Assembly (NCBI GenBank): GCA_016933045.1
Contig: JAFGBR010000035.1
Span: 1 to 64,000 of the forward strand
Length of the DNA stretch: 64,000 nucleotides
Reading direction: 5' to 3'
Source: Marinilabiliaceae bacterium
GTDB lineage: Bacteria > Bacteroidota > Bacteroidia > Bacteroidales > Marinilabiliaceae
Below the pieces are notes generated by a model, which did no database searches, was not told the origin of the DNA, and saw only the letters and a list, made by a program, of their open reading frames with translations. Made by a program: the position numbers and the translations under genes. Of this stretch, positions 991 to 30,429 are shown piece after piece; position 1 is the stretch's first letter; each line of letters begins with the position of its first letter.

Positions 991-3834
991 ATGAGAAAAG
1001 GATACTTTATTTTTATAAAAAAGACTGCATTACTATTTGTGTTTTGTTTTTTTCTGCAGAATGTAATAAGTGGTCAAAGTCGGATTATTTCCGTTTCTGA
1101 AGAAACAAACGATGTTGAATGTCGTTGTAGCGAAAATTGTTTTTCGAGTGAAATTATTGATGAATTGGTTAATGAATTATGTTTAACCCGAACTATCCAA
1201 GTAACAGCTAATAATTGTAAGTATGCACTTTCGCATTTAATTATTGAGGTGCCATGCGGAATAATTGCCGATGCGAATAATTCAAATAACTGGGAACTGA
1301 AGTTGAACTCGAAAGATCCGAAATCGGGAATTTGGGGGTTGAAAGTTGATGATATTGAAGGTTTTGGCGATGGGGGGATAAGAGATTCGTTTACTGTTAC
1401 ATATACTGTTTGTGCGAGTAATGTGGATTGTTTTGAAGAGTTGAGATCGGAACCATTTGTTGTTGCTTATAAGGCATCTGTTTGTTTGTATGTTGATACA
1501 TTAAAGGGCATGCAAGAAGAAAAATTACCTCTCTTAGCTGAGATTTCTGCAAATAATATATTATGTAACGGTACTTTAAGTGGATCTGTTTCTGTAGATG
1601 TATTACAGGGAACTGAACCTTATTCGTTTTTATGGAATACCGGCGATACAACACAAGTCATTAATCAATTAGCGGCAGGTTTGTATTCTGTTATTATAAC
1701 TGATTTTTCTGGTCAAACAATAGAGTTGTCGTCAGAGGTATTGCAACCCGAAAAAATTATTGTTTCGGGATTAGTGACTAAAACAAGTTGTAGCACTAAT
1801 AATGGTAGTATTGCATTATCAGTTTCGGGAGGTGTTGAACCATATACTGTTTTGTGGTGTGATGGAAAAACTTCATATAATAGAGAGGGATTAGGGATTG
1901 GGGATTACCGTGTTACTGTAACTGATGCAAATGGATGTGTTGTTACTAATGGTTTTAAAGTGAGTCAGGCATCAAATATTTTTGTTACTATTTCATCAAA
2001 GGAACTGGAGTGTTTTCAAGATGGTCAAGGTGAATTGATAACAACAGTTGGAGGAGGTGTTGGCACTTATTCATATGAATGGTCTACCGGAGATACAACC
2101 GCTAATTTGTATAACTTAACAGAGGGAAGATATCAAATAACAGTAACAGATGAAGAAGGCTGTAATGCAACTCGCAGTGGCAGCGTTTCGGTTAAAAATA
2201 TTGTTGCAGCAGTATCTGCTAAATCTCCGGCTTGTAGTGGTGGAGATGACGGCAGTGCTACCTTAGTTATTAATAATGGTACTGCACCTTATGATATTCT
2301 TTGGAGTAATGGAGATACTTCTGTTGTTGCAGAAAACTTATCGTCGGGGACATATAATGTTAGCATCCGTGATGTTAATGGTTGTGAATTTTCGAGGGTT
2401 GTTTTAATTACAGAACCTGATCCGGTAAATATTAGTACTCAAATTATAAAAACAGATTGTTCTTCTGATAGCAGTGGTGCATATTTGGTTTTGGCGGGAA
2501 GTGGAGGTCAGGAACCTTATAGGTTTTTCGAAAATAATAATGAAATAAATGATACTATTTTTATTGAAGTTAATGGAATTCGATTAATAACAATTGAAGA
2601 TGCTAATAATTGTTCATCAACACATGAAATAAATGTTGTTATACCTGAACAGACTATATATGTATCTGCAATTGTAACTCAACCTTCGTGTTATAATAAT
2701 AAAGGTTCGATAATGTTATCAGTTAAAAACGGAACTGAACCCTACGAAACACTCTGGGATGATGGTTTTGTTGGTTTGAAGAGAGACGAAGTTGAAGCAG
2801 GCGATTATGCTGTTACTGTTACTGATGCATCGGGATGTATTGCTACGACTACATTTGTTATTAATAAACAGGACTTACCCGAAGTGAATATTACTTCGTA
2901 TGAACAACCTTATTGTAACAGTGATGGTAATATTATTATAGCTTCGACATATAACGTGTCGCAAGTAATATGGGATATTATGTCGGAAAATGGAGAGTGG
3001 TATATCGAAGATACCAATGGTGTTTCATTGTTTTATCATGCGGGAATTGGTAATGCAACTATTATAATACAAGGAATTAGTGATAATGGTTGTGTTGATA
3101 CTGATACTATTATTGTGTCGTGTAATAATAAATATGAAGATGCAAATGAAGAAGATGATAGCGTTAATATTGATTATTGTGATTTTTTAAAAAGTTTTAG
3201 CGTAAAGAGCATAACAAATACGGGAATTGAAAATGGTTGTTTGTTTTATAAAATGGTAGTGTTTACTGATGGGCAAAGCGAGCATGATTTGTCGCACATG
3301 GTTGTTGGTGTGAAAAATGGGTGGATTGATAAGGCAGTAAACTCTGAAAATTGGCAAATTGATATGAATGGTACAGATCCTAAATCGGGAGTATATGGGT
3401 TTAAGATTGATGGTATTGAGGGATTTGGACAGGATGGGTACGAAGAGTTCTATGTTGATTTTACAGTTTGTTATAACGGAGAAGTACCTAGTGAAGTTAT
3501 CTTTCCAGTTATATTTAAGGCTGCAACTTGTTCGTTGATTGATACAATTATTTATAGGAGCGAAAATAATGAGCATTGTTTCGATGTGAAAGACTACCCA
3601 AATCCTTTTGATGATGACGCATATATTGAGTTTGATTGTTATAAAGATACACACGTTGATGTTACTGTTTATGACGCATGTGGTAGCAAGGTTGAAGTGT
3701 TATTCGATAGTGATGTACGTAAAGGGGATAGGTATAAGTGCCGTTTTAGTGGCAGACAATATAAAAATCAAGTGTTTTTTTACAGGATATCAACACCCGA
3801 AGAGACCCGGTGTGGTAAGATAATAAAAAGATAA
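991..3834 (+). CDS. Secreted multi-repeat (SprB-type) surface protein with type IX sorting tail
   Basis: Large exported protein of about 947 residues. The start at ATG 991 is chosen over a TTG at 979 because GGAGGTGG lies just before it and the signal peptide begins there (MRKGYFIFIKK, hydrophobic core, cut near SGQS). Six SprB-like units of about 70 residues run from about residue 187 to 629; each has a G-S/G start, a PY..LW or PY..EW core and an end like YxVTVTDxxGC. Flanking the array are two related domains, near residues 35-170 and 720-850, sharing DPKSG.(W/Y)G.K and IEGFG. The last 80 residues (YPNPF near 869, then FFYRIST, ending GKIIKR) form a type A type IX secretion sorting domain. 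It is probably delivered to the cell surface by the T9SS, where SprB repeats in gliding bacteria act as adhesins; ligand unknown. A terminator follows, so the gene appears monocistronic. Confidence 0.85.
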   Translation: MRKGYFIFIKKTALLFVFCFFLQNVISGQSRIISVSEETNDVECRCSENCFSSEIIDELVNELCLTRTIQVTANNCKYALSHLIIEVPCGIIADANNSNNWELKLNSKDPKSGIWGLKVDDIEGFGDGGIRDSFTVTYTVCASNVDCFEELRSEPFVVAYKASVCLYVDTLKGMQEEKLPLLAEISANNILCNGTLSGSVSVDVLQGTEPYSFLWNTGDTTQVINQLAAGLYSVIITDFSGQTIELSSEVLQPEKIIVSGLVTKTSCSTNNGSIALSVSGGVEPYTVLWCDGKTSYNREGLGIGDYRVTVTDANGCVVTNGFKVSQASNIFVTISSKELECFQDGQGELITTVGGGVGTYSYEWSTGDTTANLYNLTEGRYQITVTDEEGCNATRSGSVSVKNIVAAVSAKSPACSGGDDGSATLVINNGTAPYDILWSNGDTSVVAENLSSGTYNVSIRDVNGCEFSRVVLITEPDPVNISTQIIKTDCSSDSSGAYLVLAGSGGQEPYRFFENNNEINDTIFIEVNGIRLITIEDANNCSSTHEINVVIPEQTIYVSAIVTQPSCYNNKGSIMLSVKNGTEPYETLWDDGFVGLKRDEVEAGDYAVTVTDASGCIATTTFVINKQDLPEVNITSYEQPYCNSDGNIIIASTYNVSQVIWDIMSENGEWYIEDTNGVSLFYHAGIGNATIIIQGISDNGCVDTDTIIVSCNNKYEDANEEDDSVNIDYCDFLKSFSVKSITNTGIENGCLFYKMVVFTDGQSEHDLSHMVVGVKNGWIDKAVNSENWQIDMNGTDPKSGVYGFKIDGIEGFGQDGYEEFYVDFTVCYNGEVPSEVIFPVIFKAATCSLIDTIIYRSENNEHCFDVKDYPNPFDDDAYIEFDCYKDTHVDVTVYDACGSKVEVLFDSDVRKGDRYKCRFSGRQYKNQVFFYRISTPEETRCGKIIKR

Positions 3835-3856
3835 ATCTGTTTAGCTTTTAATATGA

Positions 3857-3899
3857 TAGCCTGGGTTTTATGTAGACTCAGGCTATTTTTTTGTTTTTT
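3857..3899 (+). terminator. Rho-independent terminator of the surface protein gene
   Basis: Stem TAGCCTGGGT (3857-3866) pairs with ACTCAGGCTA (3876-3885) with one G-T wobble and a 9-base loop, followed by a T-rich run. It sits 23 bases after the stop codon. Confidence 0.85.
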
Positions 3900-3986
3900 T
3901 AACATTTTAGAGGAAACTTTTTTAGAGTTTTTGTTGTTTATTTATTACAAATCTTTTCATAGATTGATTTGGGTTAGGGTTAGATG

Positions 3987-4020
3987 AAAAAGGTAGCTGC
4001 AAAGGTAGCTACCTTTTTTT
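3987..4020 (-). terminator. Hairpin with T-runs on both strands, 3' of the macro-domain gene
   Basis: AAAAAGGTAGCT (3987-3998) pairs perfectly with AGCTACCTTTTT (4007-4018) over an 8-base loop. The loop side can also fold on its own as AAAGGTAGCTACCTTT. T-runs occur on both strands after the stem, so it can end minus-strand transcripts from the macro-domain gene and catch read-through from the plus strand. Confidence 0.65.
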
Positions 4021-4077
4021 GAGTTTAGTCGAAATGTTAATAAATAGCAATAAATAAGTATATATTAGATATATCAG

Positions 4078-4614
4078 CTAATAATTTTTTAAAAAATCGC
4101 AATTATATTTTACTAGTATTTCGTTGTATAAAGCCAGATTTTCGTTGTCGAATAGTGCAAAAATAATTTGTTTTGGGTATTCATGTTTTTTAATAAAATC
4201 AATTGTAGTGTTAATAGCAATTGATGCTGCTTCTTTTTTGGGGTAACCATAAACACCGGTGCTTATGTTAGGAAAAGCAATTTTTCCGAATTTATTATCA
4301 AGGGCTATTGTTAGAGCAGACAAGTAGCAAGATTGTAAGAGATTAGCTTCGTTGTTGTACCCACCACTCCAAATTGGCCCAACAGTATGTATAACATATT
4401 TTGCAGGTAACATATATCCATTAGTTAGTTTTGCTTCACCTGTTTTGCAGCCTTTTAATAGTTTACATTCGTTAAGTAATTGATAACCGGCAGCTTTATG
4501 TATTGCACCGTCTACCCCACCACCGCCAAGTAATGACGAGTTAGCTGCATTTACAATGGCATCTGCTTTTATTTTTGTTATGTCGCCATGTAAAAGTTGG
4601 ATTTTATCAGTCAT
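4078..4614 (-). CDS. Macro-domain protein, probable O-acetyl-ADP-ribose / ADP-ribose hydrolase
   Basis: Single-domain macro protein of 178 residues, close to the YmdB / MacroD type that removes ADP-ribose or deacetylates O-acetyl-ADP-ribose in the cytoplasm. Visible motifs are GDITKIKADAIVNAANSSL at the N-terminus, the glycine-rich GGGGVDGAIHKAAG substrate loop, and the second phosphate loop ISTGVYGYPKKEAA. The start at ATG 4614 (MTDKIQLLHGDI) fits the family; an upstream in-frame TTG at 4665 would overlap the hairpin after pheT and is unlikely. It lies 84 bases downstream of pheT in the same direction, but the terminator between them suggests separate transcription. The family is clear; the exact substrate is not readable. 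Confidence 0.88.
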   Translation of the reverse strand: MTDKIQLLHGDITKIKADAIVNAANSSLLGGGGVDGAIHKAAGYQLLNECKLLKGCKTGEAKLTNGYMLPAKYVIHTVGPIWSGGYNNEANLLQSCYLSALTIALDNKFGKIAFPNISTGVYGYPKKEAASIAINTTIDFIKKHEYPKQIIFALFDNENLALYNEILVKYNCDFLKNY

Positions 4615-27724: not shown

Positions 27725-27864
27725 TAAAATTTTTTTATACTTATTAGGAAAATTTAAATTTTAGTATTAAAGTTATATATGTTGTATTGTTAGAGCTTTT
27801 AAAATATTGATATTAAAGTTGTTTGTTCACCATACTTCAACTATCACAGCTAAAAAAGTTTTAT

Positions 27865-27872
27865 TACATTTG
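27865..27872 (+). promoter_or_regulatory. -7 box of the queCEF operon
   Basis: TACATTTG fits TAnnTTTG and would start transcription near 27879, a few bases before the preQ1 aptamer. No TTTG lies at the expected -33 distance. Confidence 0.45.
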
Positions 27873-27886
27873 CAGCTAAATATTAA

Positions 27887-27926
27887 AGACAGTTCGTAAC
27901 CATCCTGTCTATAAACAAAACTAGGG
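27887..27926 (+). ncRNA. preQ1-I riboswitch aptamer (candidate)
   Basis: Stem P1 is AGACAG (27887-27892) with CTGTCT (27905-27910), enclosing a 12-base loop containing GTAACC, the loop word also present in the Thermoanaerobacter preQ1-I aptamer as I remember it. The A-rich tail ATAAACAAAACTAGGG follows at once, as required for the pseudoknot and minor-groove triples of this class. It lies ahead of queC-queE-queF, the genes that make preQ0 and preQ1. The start codon is 75 bases further on and there is no classic terminator, so the switching mechanism is unclear; a weak TATTG/CAATA hairpin lies between. Confidence 0.8.
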
Positions 27927-28001
27927 AATTTATATTATTGTATTATGCAATATTTGAATACTGTTTTGTAAGTTATTCGGGATGGGGAAGAGAATAACAT
28001 T

Positions 28002-28670
28002 ATGAAGAAAAAAGCAGTAGTATTACTCTCCGGAGGATTAGACTCAACAATAACACTTTATTTAGCAAAAAATCAAGGTTTTGATATTTATGCACTGTCG
28101 TTTAATTATGGACAAAGACATAATAGAGAACTTGAAGCTGCAAAAATAATTGCACAGAAAGCTGGTGTTGTTGATCATCAAATTGTTTCGATTTCGTTGA
28201 ATAATTGGGGTGGTAGTTCATTGACAGATATGTCGATGGAAATTGAGAATGGTAATGTTGACCGTACGGATATTCCGGCTACATATGTGCCGGCACGTAA
28301 TATGGTTTTCTTATCTATTGCAGCATCATTGGCTGAGGCTGTTCAAGCTCGTGATATATTTATAGGTGTTAGCCAGGTCGATTATTCAGGTTATGTTGAT
28401 TGCAGAGAGTTATTTATTAAATCGATGGAATCGGCTATTCACATGGGAACGGTAATGGGAGCTGAAAAAGGAATGCCTATAAGAATTCAAGCCCCTTTTA
28501 TAAATAAAAATAAGTCGGAAGAGATAAAAATAGGAATGGAGATTGGTGCCGATTTGTCCGATACATGGTCGTGTTATAATGGTGGCGAACGACCTTGTGG
28601 AACGTGCGATAGTTGTTTGTTGCGTAAAAAGGCTTTTCTTGAGGCTGGTTATGACGATCCTTCATTGTAA
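28002..28670 (+). CDS. queC: 7-cyano-7-deazaguanine (preQ0) synthase
   Basis: Converts 7-carboxy-7-deazaguanine to preQ0 with ammonia and ATP in queuosine synthesis, 222 residues. It shows the PP-loop [41 protein letters not shown], and a C-terminal zinc site [16 protein letters not shown]. The ATG at 28002 is preceded by a roughly 120-base leader with the riboswitch candidate. It is first of three genes: queE starts 14 bases after its stop. Confidence 0.96.
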
Positions 28671-28684
28671 AAGAAATTTATGTT

Positions 28685-29542
28685 ATGGGTAAAATTGTTT
28701 TGGTTGATGAAGGTGTTTTTCCAATTGTTAAAGATGTTAATGGAAAAATGTTGGATGAAATACCTCAAACCGGATGGAATATATCGGGTACCGTTCAGGG
28801 AGAAGGAAAGCTTGCCGGGGTTCCTTCTATATTTATTCGGTTAGCATCCTGTAATCTTCGGTGTGTATGGGCATTGCCTAATGGTAAATTGTGTCATTGC
28901 GACACTTCATATGCTTCATTTTTTCCCGTAAATGTTAACGAATGGGATATTAATGATGTTGTAAGTACTGTAAAAGAAAATCTGGGTAATATAAAACATG
29001 TAGTTATAACCGGTGGTGAACCAATGTTGCAATTAAATGCCATTGTTGAACTGTGTGCAGAATTGAAAAAAAACTGTGGTGTTCATATTACACTGGAGTC
29101 AAATGGAACTATTTATAGTGCAGAAGTTGCTCAATACATCGATTTGGTAAGTTTATCGCCTAAATTGCAAAACTCAGTTCCATCGGACGATAAATTAAAA
29201 AAGTTGCAATTAAAAGAGTCATTGTCTTTTAAATACCACGACAATAACCGTAAACGAATTGATGTTATTCAAAGCTGGATTTCAAACTGTAGAAAAAAAG
29301 GAACAGACTTTCAGCTTAAGTTTGTTGTTGCCAATTTATTTGAATCTAATGAAATTAGAAACGATTATCTGAATATATTAAAAGGTTGGTATCCGACCGA
29401 TGTTTTGTTAATGCCATTAGGTACAAATGTTGGAGAGATAGCAATAACAACGCCTGTTGCTATTCAAATGGCAATAGTAAATGGATGGCGATATACACCT
29501 AGGGTTCATATTGATGTTTTTGGATGTAAAAAAGGAGTTTGA
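28685..29542 (+). CDS. queE: 7-carboxy-7-deazaguanine synthase, long form with unusual cysteine spacing
   Basis: Radical SAM enzyme that ring-contracts 6-carboxytetrahydropterin. At 285 residues it is longer than the usual 190-250. SGTVQGEGKLAGVPSIFIRLASC is the typical start of the domain. The cluster loop reads C56-NLR-C60-VWALPNGKL-C70-H-C72-DTSY: instead of CX3CX2C the pattern is C-x13-C-x-C with an extra Cys60, similar in spirit to the CX14CX2C loop described for another QueE. TGGEPMLQ (SAM-binding GGE) and LESNGT follow. An insertion near 165-205 is rich in Lys. The last residues overlap nothing; queF starts 2 bases after its stop. Confidence 0.9.
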   Translation: MGKIVLVDEGVFPIVKDVNGKMLDEIPQTGWNISGTVQGEGKLAGVPSIFIRLASCNLRCVWALPNGKLCHCDTSYASFFPVNVNEWDINDVVSTVKENLGNIKHVVITGGEPMLQLNAIVELCAELKKNCGVHITLESNGTIYSAEVAQYIDLVSLSPKLQNSVPSDDKLKKLQLKESLSFKYHDNNRKRIDVIQSWISNCRKKGTDFQLKFVVANLFESNEIRNDYLNILKGWYPTDVLLMPLGTNVGEIAITTPVAIQMAIVNGWRYTPRVHIDVFGCKKGV

Positions 29543-29544
29543 AA

Positions 29545-30429
29545 ATGCCAAAGAAAAATGACATTGAAGGAAAGGTATTAGGTCGTAAAGTCGATTATCC
29601 ATCTAAATATGCACCACATTTATTGGTAGCAGTTCCCAGGTATTTAAATCGTATACAATATAATATTCACGACCATCATTTACCATTTGTTGGATATGAT
29701 GTTTGGCATGCTTATGAGCTGGGGTTTTTAACGGAGTTGGGATTGCCTGTAATTGGTGTGTTAAAGTTGGTGTACCCATCGGATAGTCATTTTTTGGTTG
29801 AAAGCAAGTCGTTAAAATTATACCTTAATTCTTTTAACATGCAACGAATAGGTGACTCTGTTAAAGAAGGTGTTGAGAAAATTTTGAATATTATTAAAAA
29901 CGATTTGTGTGTTTTACTTAATACAGATGTTGATGTTTCTTTTTTTTCAGAAATAAAACATTTTGATTTACCATTTTCTGACTTTTCTGTGTTAGAAGAA
30001 ATGAATGGTGCTGAAGCAATTCAATTTTGTAATTTTTCAGATACTCCTGAGTTGTTAAAAATTGAACACGAAGGTGATTATGAACTTAAGGTTGCTACCC
30101 ATTTACTCCGTAGTAATTGTAAAATAACACATCAGCCCGACTGGGGCAGTGCTTTTATTAAAATACGTGGGCATTTAAAACCCAATGTTCTGTCATTATT
30201 GGAATATATTATTTCGTTTCGAAATGAAAATCATTTTCACGAAGAGATTTGTGAAATGTTATATAAGCGACTTTTTGATGTATATAAACCCGATGAGCTT
30301 TTAGTTGCCTGCATTTATACCCGACGTGGAGGTATTGATATTAGTCCTGTTAGAGCTTCCGATCCTGATTTACTTAATATTAGTTTGTGTAATGCCAGTA
30401 TATTAACTAATAAAATGTTACGACAATAA
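29545..30429 (+). CDS. queF: NADPH-dependent preQ0 reductase, long bimodular type
   Basis: Reduces the nitrile of preQ0 to preQ1. The protein has 294 residues and two T-fold halves, the E. coli-type layout rather than the short B. subtilis type. The signature ESKSLKLYLNSFNMQR (residues about 88-103) binds substrate, and the catalytic Cys192 and Asp199 are in SNCKITHQPDWG. The start is ATG 29545, with AAGGAG eight bases before it; an in-frame TTG at 29539 overlaps the queE stop. queD is not in this operon and must lie elsewhere. It completes a preQ1-specific operon fitting a preQ1-sensing riboswitch. Confidence 0.95.
   Translation: MPKKNDIEGKVLGRKVDYPSKYAPHLLVAVPRYLNRIQYNIHDHHLPFVGYDVWHAYELGFLTELGLPVIGVLKLVYPSDSHFLVESKSLKLYLNSFNMQRIGDSVKEGVEKILNIIKNDLCVLLNTDVDVSFFSEIKHFDLPFSDFSVLEEMNGAEAIQFCNFSDTPELLKIEHEGDYELKVATHLLRSNCKITHQPDWGSAFIKIRGHLKPNVLSLLEYIISFRNENHFHEEICEMLYKRLFDVYKPDELLVACIYTRRGGIDISPVRASDPDLLNISLCNASILTNKMLRQ

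Follow-up and report, generated by a model that had tools for sequence, protein, structure and literature searches.

The window, the whole stretch of 64,000 nucleotides analysed here, carries between positions 27,865 and 30,429 a putative promoter box, a small aptamer-like RNA element and a run of queuosine genes:

27865-27872, forward strand: TACATTTG (TAnnTTTG), which we take to be the -7 box of Bacteroidota, placed by its sequence and by the position of the box in relatives
27887-27892, forward strand: AGACAG, the 5' strand of helix P1, from the RF00522 alignment and the pairing in 54 distinct sequences
27893-27904, forward strand: aptamer loop UUCGUAACCAUC, with the UU start and UC end that mark type I, from the family alignment and the criteria described in PMC11625349
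27896-27901, forward strand: GTAACC inside that loop, read from the sequence
27905-27910, forward strand: CUGUCU (CTGTCT as DNA), the 3' strand of P1, on the same evidence as the 5' strand
27911-27926, forward strand: A-rich tail AUAAACAAAACUAGGG (ATAAACAAAACTAGGG as DNA), from the family alignment
28002-28670, forward strand: queC, matched by TIGR00364 (216 bits) and PF06508, both over cut-off
28685-29542, forward strand: queE-like radical SAM gene, for which the five top NCBIfam models are all QueE and all under cut-off, with PF04055 over cut-off and the operon position in agreement
29539-30429, forward strand: queF, matched by PF14819 and PF14489 over cut-off and by TIGR03138 with 245.7 bits, under its 293.45

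The three genes run in the same direction, and queF begins at the stop of the queE-like gene or a few bases past it, its listed start being TTG and the next ATG lying at 29545. The queC-queE-queF operon that the original prediction had placed behind the aptamer is thereby borne out, for QueC and QueF by models over cut-off and for the QueE-like protein by best models under cut-off. Within its cluster loop the QueE-like protein of the window carries extra residues between the cysteines (CNLRC-VWALPNGKL-CHC); at this place the QueE of the relative L165 reads CNLNCKWC.

In the leader, C27901 and C27900 of the loop can pair with G27925 and G27926 of the tail to close the pseudoknot P2, C27904 is presumed to be the specificity base, and the variable base of the tail (x) is C27916. 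The ATG of queC at 28002 lies 75 bases past the last tail G. Of 61 leaders, 49 have a TAnnTTTG box in the 45 nt that precede the aptamer, as against 5 of 258 control windows. The aptamer thus starts only a short way downstream of the likely transcription start, by a few bases, and in the window transcription probably begins a few bases past TACATTTG.

The Rfam check that had been proposed with the prediction gave a match of RF00522 (Rfam preQ1-I) over the full model at 27884-27930 of the forward strand, with 29.3 bits and an E value of 4.1e-4 in 401 bases. The gathering score of RF00522 is 39 bits, and because the window match falls below it, the curated Rfam scan of the window at gathering reported tRNA only and no preQ1-I. 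The site is the top-scoring place for RF00522 in its own genome, the next reaching 20.5 bits; a family-specific model, which includes the window copy, gives it 71 bits and the next place 23.6. Matches of RF00522 with an E value of at most 0.05 were obtained in 32 of the 71 genomes of the window's family, none of the 71 had a match over the gathering score, and no RF00522 match was reported at the six loci that were scanned at Rfam gathering. The Rfam cut-off therefore misses every copy in the family, and the family-specific model finds such copies in other families too. A chance match is ruled out by the top rank in the own genome together with the conservation before queC.

This conservation was followed through the family. 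QueC was found in 67 of the 71 genomes, and all 67 upstream regions were searched, as far as 450 nt from the gene or to the contig edge if that came first. An aptamer with stem, loop, pseudoknot and A-rich tail precedes queC in 61 of them, the six regions without it being L094, L098 (99 nt of contig only), L111, L119, L133 and L134. The family alignment consists of 54 distinct aptamers, 7 of the 61 being identical copies that were left out, and five distant loci from a QueC search of named genomes were likewise kept out of the analyses. Across the 54 sequences P1 is 98.1% paired, with three of its six pairs changed on both sides and the other three invariant, and P2 is 58.1% paired, with all three pairs changed on both sides; the P2 pair 22-44 is unpaired in 38 of the 54, and seven distinct short-leader sequences are without one P2 base. 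The observed paired share, the number of pairs changed on both sides and the covariation score were each reached by none of 500 shuffles, uncorrected for kinship, and the number of further pair types was reached by 420 of 500; when the partner strand was slid, pairing dropped to at most 46%. The compensatory changes in both helices, taken with the conservation before queC and the gene context, confirm the preQ1-I identity at the level of compared sequences. Every element that had been named for the aptamer is in place, and the comparison of queC leaders, which had been set as a test, yielded a conserved stem, loop and tail and not the combination of no match and no conservation on which the claim was to fall.

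Judged by published criteria the window aptamer fits class I type I, whose described marks are a UU following the 5' P1 strand, a UC preceding the 3' P1 strand and a C in the tail (PMC11625349), and T10, T11, T20, C21 and C38, numbered on the first sequence, are invariant in the 54 distinct family sequences. The GUAACC loop resembles the Thermoanaerobacter sequence, which belongs to type II, but type II is ruled out, the two bases ahead of the 3' P1 strand being UC where that type would have AC. L154-L157, relatives that belong to other families, carry only one U behind P1. Class I type I is described as binding two preQ1 molecules, and Bacteroidota are among the phyla listed for it (PMC11625349); preQ1 switches are said to be mostly confined to Firmicutes in the earlier comparative study PMC3766115. 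The identity of the element is in this respect ordinary and already reported from Bacteroidota.

Outside the family, the family-specific model has matches in at least 21 of 393 genomes of the order (E 0.01) and in at least 2 of 395 genomes of the class (E 0.001), the latter both from the own family; these counts are lower bounds, few candidates per genome having been scored. At least 23 order-level matches divide into 5 in the own family and 18 outside. For 16 of the 18 the neighbour is queC, queF or a queCDE operon; the exceptions are the two weakest, L158 and L159. In L143 a queuosine-precursor transporter stands before queF, and L155 has a similar protein, as judged by eye. At L165 (G448:C52, 7721-11394, minus strand) a family-model match of 60.3 bits heads an operon in which queC, queD and a queE-like gene are accompanied by an HGD-D/double-cubane-like reductase (PF06050; NF040772 under cut-off) and an acyl-CoA dehydratase activase. 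The suggestion that this double-cubane-like reductase replaces a missing epoxyqueuosine reductase is not supported, since the genome has a queG match over cut-off; no queH was found in it, and with queG present and queH absent the reductase pair is left without an obvious place in the pathway. At L167 (G107:C120, 4310-4354, minus strand), from another family of the class, RF00522 itself has a strong match of 50.7 bits, over its cut-off, with a Vut_1 transporter gene (3670-4305) starting a few bases further downstream.

The distance between aptamer and start codon divides the 61 family leaders into two forms. In 47 long leaders queC starts 70-351 nt after the CUA of the tail (78 nt in the window), and in 14 short leaders it starts either 2-6 nt (12 leaders) or 30-31 nt (2 leaders) after it. 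Tabulated translational preQ1 switches act on the Shine-Dalgarno sequence, either directly or by a domain docking that hides it (PMC11625349). For the window such an occlusion finds no object, the AUG being 75 nt from the tail and SD-like cores at -20 to -4 before queC being present in 0 of the 47 long leaders. The same cores precede 3 of 37 genes of the window, and the two control stretches have 3 of 37 and 0 of 37; position -3 carries A in 49%, against 32% overall. The TAnnTTTG box and the missing Shine-Dalgarno cores agree with the assignment to Bacteroidota. Ribosomes of Bacteroidia do not recognise Shine-Dalgarno sequences (PMC9976891), and in Flavobacterium johnsoniae initiation is described as proceeding without them and as sensitive to the structure around the AUG and to upstream A (PMC6847099).

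Many long leaders contain a U-rich stretch that resembles the reverse complement of the tail, and the predicted folds of the window leader assign partners to it. In these predictions the bound state was represented by imposing P1 and holding loop and tail unpaired, the pseudoknot, ligand energies and cotranscriptional folding lying outside the model. Three further elements are defined by the folds:

27960-27971, forward strand: anti-tail ACUGUUUUGUAA, whose predicted partner is the tail in the free state and, once the aptamer has formed, the queC start (AUG and codons 4-6)
27978-27985, forward strand: CGGGAUGG, which lies beyond the tail/anti-tail helix and is paired with CCAUCCUG (27900-27907) in the predicted free-state minimum free energy fold
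27972-27978 with 27992-27998, forward strand: hairpin GUUAUUC/GAAUAAC just 5' of the AUG, from the bound-state minimum free energy fold

In the free fold, 27900-27907 pairs with 27978-27985, 27915-27921 with 27963-27969, and 27923-27924 with 27961-27962. In the bound fold, 27968-27971 pairs with 28000-28003, taking in the A and U of the AUG, and 27960-27967 pairs with 28011-28018. The computed pairing between anti-tail and start rises from 0.00 free to 0.95 bound, a figure obtained without a shuffle control, and the unpaired share of the AUG falls from 0.48 to 0.22. Against 500 shuffles the opening of the AUG has p 0.038 and the cost of the aptamer conformer p 0.016, with p 0.07 for tail pairing and p 0.094 for the region-wide opening, so that the window alone is weak evidence. 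Four parameter sets at two temperatures agree in the direction of the AUG effect, with a size of 0.06-0.28. With the Andronescu set the AUG effect shrinks at 28 C to 0.39 vs 0.33 and the region-wide effect is gone (0.52/0.52 at 37 C, 0.49/0.50 at 28 C), and the bound fold of the Langdon set is without the four pairs at the AUG. The outer arm at 27978-27985 is not conserved, nothing like CGGGAUGG being seen by eye in the leaders of relatives. A CCAUCC/GGAUGG helix was rejected as a conserved platform helix, GGAUGG being seen in the window only; CCAUCC is common in relatives because it is part of the aptamer.

The comparison among relatives took in leaders of 60 nt or more, without the 14 shorter ones. 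RNAduplex on the 47 long leaders gave a moderately convincing mean z of -1.24, with p below 0.05 in 14 of the 47 (z -2.0 and p 0.055 for the window). Partition functions were computed for 43 leaders, four of the 47 that exceed 260 nt being also omitted, and here the tail pairs downstream with a mean probability of 0.67 and the start region is unpaired at 0.51 when free and 0.44 when bound, the free value being the higher in 36 of the 43. When these leaders are set against their shuffled versions, tail pairing reaches a mean z of 2.2, the aptamer-conformer cost one of 2.5 and the opening of the start one of 1.7, the mean start opening being 0.069 as observed and 0.004 when shuffled. A larger set of 59 long leaders includes other families, without L116 (>350 nt), L143 and the short L149 and L157, and forms 26 genus groups, one genus counting twice for its two operons; relatedness was handled by this genus grouping alone. 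Pairing of the tail to downstream sequence exceeds shuffles of preserved dinucleotide content in 24 of the 26 groups (Wilcoxon p 1e-6), the aptamer-conformer cost in 21 (p 4e-5) and the free-state opening of the start region in 20 (p 0.001). The outgroups give a mixed picture, tail pairing beyond shuffles being seen in none of L156, L160 and L161. Only some of the relatives show a clear capture of the start by the anti-tail; an anti-tail is defined in 55 of the 59 leaders, and over these the modelled mean of the capture in the bound state is 0.26, again without a shuffle control. In the 14 short leaders the modelled start does not close (unpaired 0.67 free and 0.76 bound), and there the pseudoknot might simply crowd the AUG.

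The variable base of the tail offers a further view of the same pairing. This base, x in UAAAxAAAAC, is C, U or A, and it was exchanged computationally in the 57 leaders whose register is regular, without L154 and L155, which have an extra A in the tail. In each of the three groups the native base gives the best mean energy for the duplex between tail and downstream leader. Leaders with C reach -9.95 with their own base, compared with -9.05 for U and -7.90 for A; leaders with U reach -10.28 against -9.54 and -9.54 for the other bases; and leaders with A reach -10.47 against -9.44 for C and -9.12 for U. The own base is strictly the best in 25 of 42 C, 3 of 5 U and 6 of 10 A leaders, and another base pairs better in 15 of 42, 2 of 5 and 3 of 10, respectively. 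Permuting the bases among leaders gives p 1.5e-4 for the 57 leaders and 0.013 for 31 genus-allele units. The comparative data in this way demonstrate both an excess of downstream tail pairing and a co-adaptation of the variable tail base with the leader.

On these grounds we propose that the leader acts as a preQ1-I riboswitch of class I type I, through which abundant preQ1 would lower the translation of queC-queE-queF. In the absence of ligand, the tail (27915-27924) would pair with the U-rich anti-tail (27961-27969) and the loop and 3' strand of P1 (27900-27907) with 27978-27985; with tail and loop engaged downstream the aptamer would be undone and the queC start would be freer. Binding of preQ1 would close the pseudoknot, which takes up the tail and releases the anti-tail, and the released strand would then pair with the AUG and codons 4-6, hindering initiation by a ribosome that does not use a Shine-Dalgarno sequence. 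The two folds and the closure of the start codon are computed predictions; preQ1 binding, the OFF direction and the translational level are inferred, as is the shut-off by preQ1 that was originally suggested. We consider a translational OFF switch that works by this strand swap between tail, anti-tail and start to be more likely than not. The original prediction had also supposed that a leader of 75 bases may hide an expression platform of a less usual kind, and the finding of no SD core, no terminator and an anti-tail with a comparative signature points in that direction.

The same aptamer could instead control transcription, the ligand favouring an intrinsic or Rho-dependent stop and the tail/anti-tail helix serving as antiterminator. 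In the preQ1 switch of B. subtilis the free tail enters an antiterminator. Binding of preQ1 there favours the terminator hairpin (PMC11625349), and terminator-like sites occur in 15 of the 59 long leaders where 4.1 are expected, or in 7 against 1.0 under stricter rules. However, most of the 15 have weak U runs by eye, and no such site was found within 27740-28100 of the window, in keeping with the earlier remark that its leader has no strong terminator; we regard transcriptional control as unlikely. In L138 and L148 a GC hairpin followed by a U run forms a possible terminator that is convincing by eye, and because terminator-like sites are over-represented, though convincing only in these two, the relatives may mix mechanisms.

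It has also been considered that the aptamer acts alone by its presence near the 5' end, through indirect occlusion, and that leaders rich in A and in U simply give rise to the anti-tail as a by-product. A type I switch of Carnobacterium is reported to be functional with its Shine-Dalgarno sequence shifted by up to 10 nt (PMC11625349), and the closeness of the AUG to the tail in the 14 short leaders would suit such an action; the window AUG, however, is 75 nt away, and a by-product should neither exceed dinucleotide-preserving shuffles in 24 of 26 groups nor be co-adapted with a tail base, which makes this explanation quite improbable. Least credible of all, and only faintly so, is a switch that consists of an upstream reading frame, whose translation would melt the tail/anti-tail helix and whose AUG the ligand would block. 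A frame at 27945-27971 of the window (8 codons and stop) does span the anti-tail, an AUG lies within 28 nt of the tail CUA in 34 of the 59 long leaders (null 22.1, sd 3.5), and CUAUGGGCCAUG ends the tail in several genera; yet by eye the upstream frames share no common length or peptide across genera, and the motif CAUGnGCAAAAAUG, which follows the tail in several genera, is kept through frame shifts.

Returning to the strand swap, we tentatively entertain the wider idea, to which we give somewhat less than even credence, that the lineage has its own preQ1-I platform, in which tail and start region compete for one U-rich strand that co-evolves with the tail, and that within it the leader has switched back and forth between this long form and a short one with the AUG abutting the tail. 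In the text available from the top-ranked open literature on preQ1 switches in the phylum, on riboswitch platforms and Shine-Dalgarno sequences, and on preQ1 antiterminators, there is no report of an anti-tail platform. If the proposal is true, a preQ1 switch with a co-adapted anti-tail would provide a testable case of riboswitch-controlled initiation without a Shine-Dalgarno sequence.

Compared with known systems, the closest relation is to class I type I (RF00522), as described for Carnobacterium antarcticum (PMC11625349), with which the window shares P1, the UU and UC marks, the tail C, the A-rich tail, the pseudoknot and a queC operon, and from which it differs in that its copy scores under the gathering threshold, has no Shine-Dalgarno sequence and a start 75 nt away, and has a predicted anti-tail. 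In the preQ1-I switch of B. subtilis (type II, PMC11625349) the uptake of the tail on binding likewise decides the downstream fold, but that switch carries type II marks and a terminator, whereas the window has no terminator and its proposed output is access to the start codon. Flavobacterium johnsoniae (PMC6847099) likewise initiates without a Shine-Dalgarno sequence and is sensitive to structure at the AUG; this is described there as a general property of mRNAs, whereas for the window a ligand-driven change of structure is proposed. The riboswitch identity is thus ordinary, its score lying below the database threshold, and the platform is a plausible variant for which the comparison among relatives argues.
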